From assembly GCA_021295955.1 (NCBI GenBank), contig JAGWBJ010000003.1:124001-188000 (forward strand): DNA of 64,000 bases. The letters run 5' to 3'. Of the stretch, positions 28,060 through 36,119 are shown in pieces. How positions within the stretch are numbered: the stretch's first letter is position 1; every line of letters begins with the position of its first letter. The translations under genes and the position numbers were made by a program. Below the pieces are notes generated by a model. It saw nothing but the letters and a program-made list of their open reading frames with translations, searched no databases and was not told the origin of the DNA. Source of the DNA: Dehalococcoidia bacterium (GTDB lineage Bacteria; Chloroflexota; Dehalococcoidia; Lucifugimonadales; JAGWBF01).

Positions 28060-30117
28060 ATGGCCCGCGGCCCCGGCCCGACGACGCGGCTCAGGGCCCT
28101 GGCAGCGGGCGGGGTGTACTTGTTTGCCGCCGCGTCGGTGCTGCTGGGCGCCTGCTCGGATGGCGGGCGGACCCCGGCAGGAGAGACCTCCGCGCCTCCC
28201 ACGCCGCCGGCGGTCTCGTCTCCGCGCGCGGAGGCACGACCGTCTCCCAGTTCTCCATCCACCGACCCTCCCACGGTTGGCCGGGCGGCGACGCCGGCGC
28301 CCACCTCCCCCGACCCCGACACGACCCGGACGCCCGCCGCCGCCCGGCCGTCTCCGACGTCCGTCGAGCCCGCGGACGTCCCCGTGACCGCCGGCGCCTT
28401 CCCGGTCCCCCCGGAGAGGGACCTGTACCATCTGACGGCGTCCCTGGTCCTCAAGAGCGGTGACCCCATACCGCGGGTCGTCAACTCCGAGCCCGTCAGC
28501 TACGCCGAGGGGCGGGTGGACACGTTCTGGCTGACGGACCTCAGCGACGTCAGCAACTACCAGAGCCAGGCCACGCTGGCCCTGGTGACCCCCCACGCCT
28601 ACTGGTACGTGGAGGAGGGGCTTCGGGTGTCTCGGGACGACCTGGAGAGGGCGGCCGAGGCCTTCGAGGGGCAGATATACCCCAGGATCACCGCCGCGTT
28701 CGGCACCGAGTGGGTGCCGGGAGTGGACAACGATCCCCACCTCACCATCCTTCACGCCCGGCTGAGCGGGGCGGGGGGCTACTTCTCCTCCGTGAACCAG
28801 TACCCGACGGTGGTCCGTGAGCACAGCAACCAGCGGGAGATGGTATACATGTCGTCGGGCCTGAGGATCGGCTCCCCCCAGTACCTGGCCGTCTTGGCCC
28901 ACGAGCTGCAGCACGCCATCCATTGGAACGCCGACCCCTCCGAGGAGACGTGGGTGAACGAAGGCCTGGCGGAGGTGGCGACCTCCGTCGCCGGATACGA
29001 GACACTGAGCCCCCACGCCTTTCTGCGGTCCTCAGGCGGCTCGCTGGTCAACTGGCCCCTGGACGGCCCCACCACCGTCCACTACGGCGCGGGCAACCTG
29101 TTCTTCGAGTATCTGACAGGCCGCTATGGGACGGTGGAGGACATCGCCCTTCTGCTGACGGAGCCGTCGGACGGCATCCAGGGTGTGGACGCCTACCTGG
29201 CCAAGCTGGGCTACGACGTTGCCTTTCGGGACGTCTTTGGCGACTGGACCGTGGCCAACTACCTGGACGCTCCCACCGGACCCTACGGCTACCCGGACCG
29301 GGAGGTGGGCGTCCGCGCCACCGGGCGGATGGACGAGCCCGGGACACGGACGTCATCCATCGACCAGTACTCGGCCGAGTACACGGCCGTTGACATAATC
29401 AAGGGGGATGTGGTCGTCCGCTTCCAGGGAGACACGGGAGTCCCCCTGGTGCCGGAGCTGCCCGAGAGTGGCGGCTGCTGGTGGAGTAACCGCGGCGACT
29501 CCATCAGCTCCACGCTGACGTGGGAGGTGTACCTGTCCTCGGACGAGGACGCCGTGCTGCGGTACGGCGTCTGGTTCGACATCGAGGAGGACTGGGACTA
29601 CGGCTACCTGCAGGTCTCCACCGACGGCGGAGAGACCTGGGACATCGTCGCGACGCCCGCGTCCTCGGCGCACAACCCCGTGGGCAACAGCTACGGTCCG
29701 GGCTATACGGGGCGGAGCGACGGCTGGATCGACCAGCAGGTGGACCTGGGCGCCTACTCCGGGGGAGTTGTGTTGGTACGCTTCAGCCACGTGACCGACG
29801 ACGCCATCAACGGCCTGGGGTTCTGCGTCGCCGGCCTGTCTTTTGGGGGTGGGCCGCCGCTGGACCGGGACGGCCGCTGGGAGCCCGACGGGTTCGCCTG
29901 GGTCGACGGCCCCGTCCCCCAGGAGTACATCGTGCGGGTCATAGAGGTGGGCGACCAGGTCCGGGTGCGGGAGATTCCCCTGGACAGGTACAACCGTGGC
30001 GAGCTGCCCGTCACGGGCCTGGAGGACCTGGACGACCTCGTGGTGGTGGTCGCGGCCCTGGCCCCCGAGACCCTGACCCCGGCCCCCTACACGCTGACCG
30101 TCGACCGGCCCTCGTGA
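28060..30117 (+). CDS. Secreted lipoprotein metallopeptidase with HExxH (immune inhibitor A-like)
   Basis: A 685-residue exported protein. The first ~34 residues are a lipoprotein signal ending in VLLGAC, so it should be anchored outside the membrane. Residues ~35-110 are a Pro/Ser/Thr-rich spacer. The catalytic centre is LAHELQHAIH, with zinc histidines at 281 and 285, and NEGLAE at 300-305 provides the third ligand glutamate, a gluzincin arrangement. The C-terminal part has beta-rich segments (WEVYLSSDEDAVLRYGVWFD and LQVSTDGGETWDIVA), resembling the MAM/immune-inhibitor-A-like or carbohydrate-binding domains of M6-type peptidases. It probably digests external protein. It follows pth by 14 bp and may be read through from it. 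Confidence 0.82.
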   Translation: MARGPGPTTRLRALAAGGVYLFAAASVLLGACSDGGRTPAGETSAPPTPPAVSSPRAEARPSPSSPSTDPPTVGRAATPAPTSPDPDTTRTPAAARPSPTSVEPADVPVTAGAFPVPPERDLYHLTASLVLKSGDPIPRVVNSEPVSYAEGRVDTFWLTDLSDVSNYQSQATLALVTPHAYWYVEEGLRVSRDDLERAAEAFEGQIYPRITAAFGTEWVPGVDNDPHLTILHARLSGAGGYFSSVNQYPTVVREHSNQREMVYMSSGLRIGSPQYLAVLAHELQHAIHWNADPSEETWVNEGLAEVATSVAGYETLSPHAFLRSSGGSLVNWPLDGPTTVHYGAGNLFFEYLTGRYGTVEDIALLLTEPSDGIQGVDAYLAKLGYDVAFRDVFGDWTVANYLDAPTGPYGYPDREVGVRATGRMDEPGTRTSSIDQYSAEYTAVDIIKGDVVVRFQGDTGVPLVPELPESGGCWWSNRGDSISSTLTWEVYLSSDEDAVLRYGVWFDIEEDWDYGYLQVSTDGGETWDIVATPASSAHNPVGNSYGPGYTGRSDGWIDQQVDLGAYSGGVVLVRFSHVTDDAINGLGFCVAGLSFGGGPPLDRDGRWEPDGFAWVDGPVPQEYIVRVIEVGDQVRVREIPLDRYNRGELPVTGLEDLDDLVVVVAALAPETLTPAPYTLTVDRPS

Positions 30118-30986: not shown

Positions 30987-31571
30987 TTAGCTCAGGTGCT
31001 TGGAAAGCATGGTCCGTATCTCGGACACCGAGTGGCGCATCCATTCGCCGAACCGCTCCTGGTTCAGGGGGCGGGCCAGGGCGCGGACCCGCTGCTCGTC
31101 GGCGTCGGGGTTCTCCCGTTTGACGCGCTCCTGGATCTCGTCCATCTCGCGCTCGGCCACGGCGGGGCGTTCGATCCAGTGGTCGATGTACTCGTGGTCA
31201 CCGGTGTAGAACACCACCGCCGGTATGGAGGCGTACTTTCCCTCTTTCAGGAACTCGTTCATGATGTCCATGTGGGAGTCCCTGGGGAACACCCGCATCT
31301 CGAACCCGCCCGCCTCGGCGATGCGGGCGGCCACGGGCATGCCCCGGTACACGTCGGGGCACCAGTCCTCGCCGATGACCATCATCTTGGCCGGGCCTCC
31401 CGCCTGTTCGGCGGCATGGCGGAAGAACTCCGCGTCTTCGTCGGCAAGGTGGAAGGAGTCGTACAGCTTCTCGAACCAGCTCTTGTTGACCTTGATCTGG
31501 TCCACGTACTCCCGGTAGGTGAACCCGCTGGCGAACCTCTCCGGAGTCACCACGCTAGTCTCTCTGACCAT
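30987..31571 (-). CDS. Thioredoxin-fold protein with a single active-site cysteine (WCPD)
   Basis: A 194-residue protein of the thioredoxin-like family (Thioredoxin_9-like). The active-site strand is MMVIGEDWCPDVYRG: one cysteine remains where CxxC would be, the second position being Val. The cis-proline loop appears as ASIPAVVFY. The N-terminal helices (YREYVDQIKVNKSWFEKLYDSF) and the C-terminal charged helix are typical of the subgroup. A monocysteine enzyme would act by a glutathione- or bacillithiol-type mechanism or with a resolving partner. ATG at 31571 follows GGAGGAGG. It lies in the operon with the Sec-glutaredoxin, ICL-like lyase and GATase-like protein. Confidence 0.8.
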   Translation of the reverse strand: MVRETSVVTPERFASGFTYREYVDQIKVNKSWFEKLYDSFHLADEDAEFFRHAAEQAGGPAKMMVIGEDWCPDVYRGMPVAARIAEAGGFEMRVFPRDSHMDIMNEFLKEGKYASIPAVVFYTGDHEYIDHWIERPAVAEREMDEIQERVKRENPDADEQRVRALARPLNQERFGEWMRHSVSEIRTMLSKHLS

Positions 31572-31640: not shown

Positions 31641-32606
31641 TCACCGCCGGGCGCCGAACCCCTCGGTGGTGCTGTACCGCTCCCTGACCATCTGCTCGGG
31701 CAGGTACTTCTCCTCCAGCTTCTGGTAGTGCTCGAAGTCGCCCATGGTGTGGTGGTTCTCGGTGGGGTGGCCCCTGGTCAGGCGTTCCAGGCTTAGCTGC
31801 GCCTGCTCCTGGTTGTCCGCCAGGTCCTTGAGGAAGTCCCACTCGGCGTACATGGCCGCGTGGATGGCCCCCAGGCTTATGAAGATGAACTTGTAGCCCA
31901 TGTCGGCAAGGTCCTTGAACGAGGGCGGGTTCTCCAGCACCGACCAGCTCAGGGAGGAGGAATAGTTGAATGCCATGGGCGTGTCGGGGAAAGAGCCCCT
32001 GATCTCCCGGGCGAACACCTCGGCGTCGGCAAGGTCCGTGCCCGGGAACTCGGACCACACCATGTCGGCCCCGGCGTCGGCGTACCGCTTGCCCCTGTCG
32101 ACGGCCTCCTCCAGGCTGCCGCCCACGGCGCTGACGGCGTCGGTGCGGGCGATTATGAAGAAGTCGGGGTCGGACTTGGCCTCGACGGCGGCCCTTATCT
32201 TGAGGACCGCCTCATCCACGGGTATGCAGTACTTCCCGGCCAGGTGGCCGCAGCGCTTGGGGAGCCGCTGGTCCTCGATGTGTATGCCGGCGACGCCGGT
32301 CCGCTCGTACTCCTGCACGGTCCGCTGGGTGATCAGGGCGTTGCCGTAGCCGTCATCGGCGTCGGAGATGACCGGAAGGTCCGTCGCCGAGACCATGTTC
32401 TTGGCCCAGCCCGTCATCTCGGTCATGGTGGGGAACCCCAGGTCGGCCCTGCCCAGGTGGCCCAGCGCCGACGAGAGCCCGCTCATGTATACGCACTTGA
32501 GCCCCACGGCCTGGGCTATCTTGGCCTGGAGGGGGGTGAACATGCCCGTGGTGAACACGTACGGCTCCGAAGCCAGAAGCCTGCGAAACTCGGCGCTCTT
32601 GCTCAT
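31641..32606 (-). CDS. Isocitrate lyase/PEP mutase superfamily lyase (second copy)
   Basis: A 321-residue ICL/PEPM-superfamily enzyme, clearly paralogous to 9193-10068. Motifs: VISDADDGYGNA (80-90; the first paralog has DADTGYG), IHIEDQ and PKRCGH at ~116-121. It is probably a C-C lyase on a hydroxy-acid or a carboxyvinyl compound. I chose ATG at 32606, which follows GAGGAGGGACC; the longer frame is less likely. The operon order is Sec-glutaredoxin, this gene, thioredoxin-like, GATase-like, with gaps of 69-76 bp. Specificity cannot be read from the sequence. Confidence 0.88.
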   Translation of the reverse strand: MSKSAEFRRLLASEPYVFTTGMFTPLQAKIAQAVGLKCVYMSGLSSALGHLGRADLGFPTMTEMTGWAKNMVSATDLPVISDADDGYGNALITQRTVQEYERTGVAGIHIEDQRLPKRCGHLAGKYCIPVDEAVLKIRAAVEAKSDPDFFIIARTDAVSAVGGSLEEAVDRGKRYADAGADMVWSEFPGTDLADAEVFAREIRGSFPDTPMAFNYSSSLSWSVLENPPSFKDLADMGYKFIFISLGAIHAAMYAEWDFLKDLADNQEQAQLSLERLTRGHPTENHHTMGDFEHYQKLEEKYLPEQMVRERYSTTEGFGARR

Positions 32607-32682
32607 AGTCCCGGTCCCTCCTCGTTGCTGGTTGGCGGCCCCTTGGGTTCCCGGGACGGCCACGCCGCCCCTAGGCCAGCGC

Positions 32683-32895
32683 TCACCCCACCTCCCCTTC
32701 GAAGCCTATCTCCACACGGCCGTCGGGGTGGATGATGGTCGGCGCCGAGTCCGAGTACTCCAGGAGCTGGTCCAGCCACTCCTGGTTGTCGTCCACCTGC
32801 CGCTCTTCGTAGTCGATCCCCTGGAGAGCCCACGACTCTCGCAGCTTGATGCAGGTAGGTCATGTGGCCAGTGTGTATACGATGGGCTTGTCCAT
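32683..32895 (-). CDS. Selenocysteine-containing glutaredoxin (in-frame UGA; U-P-T-C active site)
   Basis: A 70-codon ORF read through an in-frame TGA at 32862-32860. The reading is MDKPIVYTLAT-U-PTC, then IKLRESWALQGIDYEER, QVDDNQEWLDQLLEY, SDSAPTIIHPDGRVEIGF and EGEVG, ending with TGA at 32685. The TGA is codon 12, exactly the N-terminal Cys of the glutaredoxin CPTC motif. The rest of the fold is intact: a first beta strand, the SAPT cis-proline loop and a closing beta hairpin. GGAGG lies six bases before ATG, and a promoter TTGCCA-N17-TACCAT lies at 32993-32965. A bSECIS-like stem-loop is positioned right after the TGA. It would be a cytosolic thiol-disulfide oxidoreductase with a selenol nucleophile. 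A nonsense mutation is the alternative, but is less likely given full conservation. Confidence 0.88.
32821..32862 (-). promoter_or_regulatory. Candidate bacterial SECIS element for the UGA of the glutaredoxin
   Basis: On the minus strand, 19 nt after the TGA (32862-32860), GAGAGUC (32840-32834) pairs with GGCUCUC (32830-32824) around a 3-nt GUG loop. CUG (32844-32842) pairs with CAG (32823-32821) across one bulged C. The result is a 10-bp stem whose apical loop begins with G about 26 nt after the UGA. Bacterial SECIS elements lie immediately downstream, with the apical loop 16-37 nt from the UGA and a G in the first loop positions, so this satisfies the model. It is inside the coding sequence, as expected for SelB. 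Confidence 0.75.
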
Positions 32896-32964: not shown

Positions 32965-32993
32965 ATGGTAGCATGGGGCTAAGGGCGTGGCAA
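32965..32993 (-). promoter_or_regulatory. Promoter of the Sec-glutaredoxin operon
   Basis: TTGCCA (32993-32988) and TACCAT (32970-32965) are separated by exactly 17 bp, with a TGC extension directly before the -10. The predicted transcription start is near 32958, giving a leader of ~60 nt to the ATG at 32895. Confidence 0.65.
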
Positions 32994-35357: not shown

Positions 35358-36119
35358 ATGGCCGAGATGAGGCAGAACCGGGTCAAGAGGGTCCTGAGGG
35401 AAGGTGGGTGCGCCACCGTGCTGGGCGGGGGGCCCAACACCCCCGACATCATCGACTACATGGGAGAGTCGGGCTTCGACGGCATGTGGCTGGAGACGGA
35501 GCACGGCTCCCTGACCTGGGAGCAGGTGGCCCACATGACCCGCGCCTGCGACCTCTGGGGCGTCACCTCCGTCTGCCGGGTCAACAGCAACGAGCCCTGG
35601 CTCATCACCAGGGCGCTGGACGTGGGCGCCACGGGCATCGTGGTGCCCCATGTCAATAGCAAGGGGGAGGCCGAGCGGGCGGCCAAGTCCGCCAAGTACG
35701 GGCCCGAGGGATATCGGGGGATGTACACCGGGCGGCAGTCCTACGGCGTTGCCGACTACTTCCGGAGGTCCAACGAGGAGACCCTGGTGGTGGCCCTCCT
35801 GGAGGAGACGGAGGCCGTCGACAACCTGGACGAGATACTGTCGGTGGACGGCATAGACGTCTATTTCATGGCCCCGTCGGACTTGGCCCAGACCATGGGA
35901 CATACGGGCCAGCCGCGCCACCCGGAGGTGCTGGCTGTCATCGACCGGTGCATCGAGCGCATCACGGCGGCGGGCAGGGTGGCCGGAGCCCTGGTGTCCG
36001 ACGACACGGTGGAGGGATACATCGAGAAGGGAGCGCGCTTCTTTCTGACGAGCTGGCTCCCGTGGCTCACCGGCGGCGCGAACGGGTTCCTCGCCAAGGT
36101 CCGGGCCAAGGGCGGTTGA
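35358..36119 (+). CDS. HpcH/HpaI aldolase family protein
   Basis: A 253-residue TIM-barrel aldolase of the HpcH/HpaI (2,4-dihydroxyhept-2-ene-1,7-dioate aldolase / citrate lyase) family. Motifs: GFDGMWLETEHGSLTWEQV, R-V-N (CRVNSNEPW), metal-binding LLEETEAVDNLDEIL and YFMAPSDLAQTMG. It cleaves or forms C-C bonds of hydroxy-oxo acids with a divalent metal. ATG at 35358 is preceded by GAGGAGG. It is followed on the same strand by an NAD-dependent epimerase, ~90 bp later. Confidence 0.9.
   Translation: MAEMRQNRVKRVLREGGCATVLGGGPNTPDIIDYMGESGFDGMWLETEHGSLTWEQVAHMTRACDLWGVTSVCRVNSNEPWLITRALDVGATGIVVPHVNSKGEAERAAKSAKYGPEGYRGMYTGRQSYGVADYFRRSNEETLVVALLEETEAVDNLDEILSVDGIDVYFMAPSDLAQTMGHTGQPRHPEVLAVIDRCIERITAAGRVAGALVSDDTVEGYIEKGARFFLTSWLPWLTGGANGFLAKVRAKGG

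Follow-up and report, generated by a model that had tools for sequence, protein, structure and literature searches.

A probable double selenoprotein of glutaredoxin-like fold, encoded near a Thioredoxin_9 gene in Dehalococcoidia

Described relatives and the window protein

The UXX-star proteins (NCBIfam models NF041212, NF041114, NF041211 and NF047338) share with the protein considered here a glutaredoxin-like domain of ~70 residues that carries selenocysteine (Sec, U) or Cys close to the C-terminal stop; as read from the model lengths, which place the counterpart of our residue 71 at position 68 of 70, 'XX-star' denotes two residues and then the stop. A review (PMC13188914) lists UXX-star family 1 with two Sec residues, suggests that UXX-star Sec may serve as metal-binding ligands and cites Haft and Gwadz (2023) and Haft and Tolstoy (2025), the key papers on these proteins; the exact subfamily treated below, or its pairing with Thioredoxin_9, may have been described already, and we claim no priority. 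The Sec-glutaredoxin of Clostridium oremlandii, cGrx1, has a UxxC motif at the same place as our protein, but its profile alignment (PDB 7c10, a chain of 84 residues) stops before residue 71 and no counterpart of a tail Sec is seen there; NrdH-redoxins, mycoredoxins and YruB-type glutaredoxins share the fold and a CxxC motif. In animal thioredoxin reductase a flexible C-terminal Sec lies beside an N-terminal redox pair, a resemblance to be taken as analogy only, protein and fold being unrelated.

The gene analysed lies in a window of 64,000 nucleotides (the whole stretch of DNA studied) whose source assembly is fragmentary, at 87.7% completeness and 7% contamination. The original prediction proposed a complete 70-residue selenocysteine glutaredoxin, ending at a TGA (32685-32683). 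Direct reading of the minus strand from 32895 to 32686 confirms its frame, MDKPIVYTLAT-TGA-PTCIKL...EGEVG, with a TGA (32862-32860) at position 1 of a CxxC motif. The GGAGG 6 nt upstream of the ATG and the promoter TTGCCA-N17-TACCAT (32965..32993, minus strand) are also where it had placed them, the latter a sigma-70-like site known by consensus match only (9/12, with an extended -10 TG); 2 sites of promoter grade were found within 2.5 kb, against 0.4 expected. The frame does not end at 32685-32683, however: it continues as U-A-L-A-TAG to 32671, giving a gene of 74 codons plus TAG (32671..32895, minus strand; stop at 32671..32673, a position kept among homologs). Translated with TGA as U, the product is MDKPIVYTLATUPTCIKLRESWALQGIDYEERQVDDNQEWLDQLLEYSDSAPTIIHPDGRVEIGFEGEVGUALA. 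It matches Pfam Glutaredoxin (PF00462) at 9.6e-8, with 32.6 bits against a gathering cut-off of 22.9, and the codon changes that separate the gene, past the TGA, from its close homologs fall mostly at third positions (for example 14/13/34 at first, second and third against L014). Together with the order-wide homologs described below, the Pfam match and this third-position bias argue that the frame is conserved beyond chance.

The structure is predicted with confidence (pLDDT 94); the solved folds closest to it are cGrx1 (top, TM 0.77), BC3987 and NrdH-type glutaredoxins; cGrx1 is also the top PDB sequence match (7c10, 1.4e-9). Among NCBIfam models NF041212 ("Uxx-star family glutaredoxin-like (seleno)protein") ranks first, and all 43 aligned members of the family match it at E <= 1e-5. 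The window protein nevertheless stays below every UXX-star cut-off (43.7 bits vs 66 for NF041212; 31.9 vs 100 and 28.7 vs 72 for others), as it does below those of TIGR02194, TIGR02200 and TIGR02196 for the NrdH-redoxin, mycoredoxin and YruB types. Nine of ten individually scanned relatives are likewise below the NF041212 cut-off of 66 (38-50 bits, one relative with Cys at residue 71 scoring 35); only L113, from a distant clade ending GCNYG, passes, as UXX-star family 2 (121 vs 100 bits). The ending differs too: by the model lengths, UXX-star proteins have Sec or Cys, two residues and a stop, whereas three residues follow U71 in the window protein and in 64 of the 65 genes with TGA at codon 71 (hereafter Sec71); L016 and the majority of the Acidobacteriota homologs have a tail of two. 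A conserved Thioredoxin_9 neighbour is a further difference. The protein thus stands near the UXX-star proteins and the Sec-glutaredoxins, to both of which it is related, and falls outside named UXX-star membership by the cut-offs. What survives of the proposed Sec glutaredoxin is the Sec at residue 12; with 74 residues, a probable second Sec and this proximity to UXX-star, it is not a complete classical glutaredoxin of 70.

Codons 12 and 71 among the homologs

In a sample of 197 genomes from the same order, relatives were found in 101; flanking DNA was retrieved for 90 matches, one of them the window gene itself, and 88 loci could be scored at both codons. Homologs across the order are 46-68% identical, with Cys or TGA at codon 12. 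The Sec71 form occurs in about 60 of the 197 genomes, 17 of which also have TGA at codon 12, so the gene is no isolated case. At E <= 1e-8, 7 of 400 genomes sampled phylum-wide gave a match, none of them outside the class. Named records with homologs comprise Dehalococcoidia, the SAR202 cluster, other Chloroflexota MAGs and Acidobacteriota (with Cys at both positions), the last including the isolate Silvibacterium bohemicum S15 (L199); many of the Chloroflexota records are marine, sponge-associated or from groundwater, to judge by isolate names. Scanning contigs with the single window protein as query gave no match, but a tighter family alignment did.

Codon 71 (32683..32685, minus strand) is TGA in 65 of the 88 loci and TGC or TGT in 23; TAA and TAG do not occur there. 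Every aligned homolog extends 2-4 residues beyond it, usually to end G-U-x-I-G-stop, or, in the Cys71 forms, G-C-Y-I-G, G-C-N-Y-G and similar. The window's own tail, ALA, is atypical against the usual x-I-G/A/E. True stops of the Sec71 genes are TGA in 37 cases, TAG in 19 and TAA in 9. To judge from these alignments, the TGA that had been read as the end of the gene is almost certainly a Sec codon too.

Codon 12 (32860..32862, minus strand), position 1 of the UPTC motif, is TGC or TGT at 70 of the 88 loci, TGA at 17 and TGG at one; homologs with Cys or Sec here were what the original prediction had called for in its support. Besides the window's, 16 genomes contribute TGA12 loci, among them L014, whose product shares 68% identity with that of the window gene; all 17 loci also carry TGA71, which would make them double selenoproteins, and 48 loci have TGA71 without TGA12. 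The tail Sec is the more conserved of the two. Three independent lines give good support to Sec at codon 12: the exchange of Cys codons and TGA, a complete Sec machinery and, in part of the family, a covarying hairpin. The tree suggests at least ~7 changes for codon 12 and 2 for codon 71; as few of its forks have good support, any count of Sec gains is provisional.

Several loci depart from the common pattern. In L103 (G065:C26:8800-13000) codon 12 is TGG (WPTC) and U71 is kept, its genus mates having TGA12; its Thioredoxin_9 match holds two stops, and decay or poor assembly is possible. Where codon 12 is Sec within the lineages f41 and f4, the second motif Cys is mostly replaced by Ser or Gly (UPAS, UNAS, UPVG: L036, L043, L046-L050, L053, L054), L026 retaining UPTC. 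L118 and L119 (G568, G573), from another family of the class, have CPTS and a tail G-TGA-EIT, lack the Thioredoxin_9 neighbour and are a further Sec71 lineage.

Absence of selA, selB or tRNA-Sec would have told against Sec. All are present in the window's genome: selA (530 bits), selB (364 bits) and selD (380 bits), and a tRNA-Sec with UCA anticodon. The selD gene (L071:1501-2421; G000:C6:52470-53390) itself encodes a selenoprotein, with an in-frame TGA in the active-site motif GUAAK. Of the Sec71 genomes tested, 57 of 61 have selA, the four without it being incomplete assemblies; since it is also found in 15 of 19 genomes whose only forms are Cys71, the machinery is consistent with Sec and does not discriminate.

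Hairpins downstream of the two TGA codons

After codon 71 the window can form a candidate SECIS element, GGGGCGGC-GTG-GCCGTCCC (32653..32671, minus strand), an 8-bp stem with its loop at +20 nt that extends beyond the stop codon (-15.7 kcal/mol, z -3.2, equalled by 0/200 shuffles). Hairpins of 6-8 bp with the loop around 17-21 nt downstream follow TGA71 in the majority of Sec71 rows: 51/65 of these have a 6-bp stem without mismatch, against 0/23 Cys71 rows and about 5% of shuffles, and mean folding energy after codon 71 is -11.8 kcal/mol for Sec71 vs -3.8 for Cys71. In the majority spacer class, which has 35 rows, 7 of 7 pairs covary, a score that 0/500 shuffles reach and no slid register approaches. 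RNAalifold found no structure in the mixed U71 alignment because its two spacer lengths are out of register; the majority class alone was resolved.

For U12 the candidate is GAGAGTC-GTG-GGCTCTC (32824..32840, minus strand), 7 bp with the loop at +27 nt, which in its minimal 21 nt folds at -8.8 kcal/mol (z -2.1 vs shuffles). Over 15 distinct U12 sequences its covariation score was reached by 0/500 shuffles, protein constraint notwithstanding, although it folds only modestly better than synonymous shuffles (mean z -0.85). Covariation downstream of the UGA is strong at U71, while at U12 it does not extend to all clades: the U12 hairpin does not form in the f7 clade or in L052, where either another hairpin must be used or the U12 assignment must be incomplete. 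Embedded in 41-45 nt of the surrounding GC-rich DNA, the window's hairpins fold no better than shuffles; the isolated ones do, so covariation is the stronger evidence. An Rfam scan of the window gave no SECIS match, which does not weigh against a SECIS reading.

These patterns bear on how the two TGA codons are read. That UGA12 alone is Sec and UGA71 an ordinary stop is improbable: a single gene would not tell, TGA being the commonest true stop in the set and the window's ALA tail unusual, but a terminator would hardly be TGA 65 times and never TAA or TAG, nor be replaced by Cys in 23 homologs that read on to a stop 2-4 codons later, nor be the only form of the codon followed by a covarying hairpin within a conserved G-U/C-x-I tail. 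Codon 12 might instead be a Cys codon spoiled by a pseudogene lesion or a sequencing error, as the Cys12 forms among the nearest loci (L015, L019), the draft state of the MAG and the TGG of L103 could suggest. We think this very improbable, as did the original prediction for a pseudogene: the same TGA recurs in 16 other genomes, one of them with a protein 68% identical, change downstream is biased to third positions, and the hairpin shows compensatory changes. The TGG of L103 could also hint that TGA is reassigned genome-wide, to Trp or another amino acid, to which we give practically no credence; neighbouring window genes (28060-30117, 31641-32606 and 35358-36119) end in TGA, so it still serves as a stop, the aligned residue elsewhere is Cys, and tRNA-Sec is present together with selA, selB and selD. 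The comparative evidence covers the frame, the exchange of Cys and Sec at both codons, the machinery, the U71 hairpin and the gene pairing described below, and we infer from it that Sec is incorporated at both positions: the gene very probably encodes a thioredoxin-fold (glutaredoxin-like) double selenoprotein of 74 residues. SelB and tRNA-Sec(UCA) would decode UGA12 and UGA71 as directed by hairpins about 20-27 nt downstream, that of U71 sitting mostly beyond the real stop codon.

The Thioredoxin_9 neighbour and a possible redox role

A Thioredoxin_9 gene lies downstream in all 65 Sec71 loci, counting the window, and adjoins the selenoprotein gene directly except in the window itself. There it is one gene further on (30987..31571, minus strand; PF14595 at 2.4e-26, with a single-Cys WCPDV motif), separated by a prpB-like gene of the PEP mutase/isocitrate lyase superfamily (31641..32606, minus strand; PF13714 at 2.7e-36, TIGR02317 at 194 bits, below cut-off); no such gene is near the selenoprotein gene in other loci. 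The Thioredoxin_9 neighbours mostly have WCPDV or WCGDV, with one Cys, and no other neighbour at the loci is near-universal. In Acidobacteriota (among L174-L199), where the homolog has Cys at both positions and ends GCFI-stop, the gene just upstream, in the same orientation, encodes a Thioredoxin_9 relative. Conservation of the pair even with the gene order reversed is good evidence that the two proteins are functionally coupled.

A C-terminal-selenol thiol/disulfide oxidoreductase paired with the Thioredoxin_9 protein is the likely role. In such an enzyme U12 would be the N-terminal attacking selenol of UPTC: Cys or Sec at this position would attack a substrate disulfide or selenylsulfide, to be resolved by C15 or by the tail Sec. 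U71, in its short flexible tail, would form a second redox centre, joined as a selenylsulfide or diselenide to U12 or C15, and electrons would probably be exchanged with the Thioredoxin_9 protein encoded alongside, a partnership that, like the redox role of the tail, we infer. Residue 71 as resolving residue fits the ten sampled loci in which C15 is replaced by Ser or Gly, since all ten carry U71, related rows among them not being independent; the tail Sec may be the sole resolving residue in the f41 and f4 Sec12 lineages that lack the second Cys. The main rival on function, that the two Sec serve to bind or pass on a metal or metalloid instead of exchanging disulfides, has the suggestion made for UXX-star Sec (PMC13188914) and the stronger conservation of the tail Sec on its side. 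We regard it as unlikely, given that the CxxC motif, the nearest folds (cGrx1, BC3987, NrdH) and the pairing with a thioredoxin-family protein all point to thiol/disulfide chemistry, and that no other gene is near-universal at the loci.

More broadly, and on balance only tentatively, although we find the case for it almost as strong as that against, these genes could form an uncurated, order-wide Dehalococcoidia/SAR202 family with a U-x-I-G tail, repeatedly upgraded to two Sec (in one lineage with loss of the classical second Cys, as U-P-A-S plus tail U), that serves a selenium-based electron relay with a dedicated single-Cys Thioredoxin_9 protein. Normal gene calling would silently cut the C-terminal Sec off every Sec71 member and lose two-Sec members, the window gene included, altogether, and current family models leave the Sec71 form unnamed; present in about 60 of 197 genomes of the order, this form would count as a common selenoprotein among bacteria of marine, sponge-associated and groundwater habitats. 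Its bacterial SECIS-like element would be one located mostly past the stop codon. The natural Cys/Cys, Cys/Sec and Sec/Sec series, with its fixed thioredoxin-like neighbour, would offer a direct test of what a C-terminal Sec tail does, and Silvibacterium bohemicum S15, being in culture, lends itself to tests of the pair.
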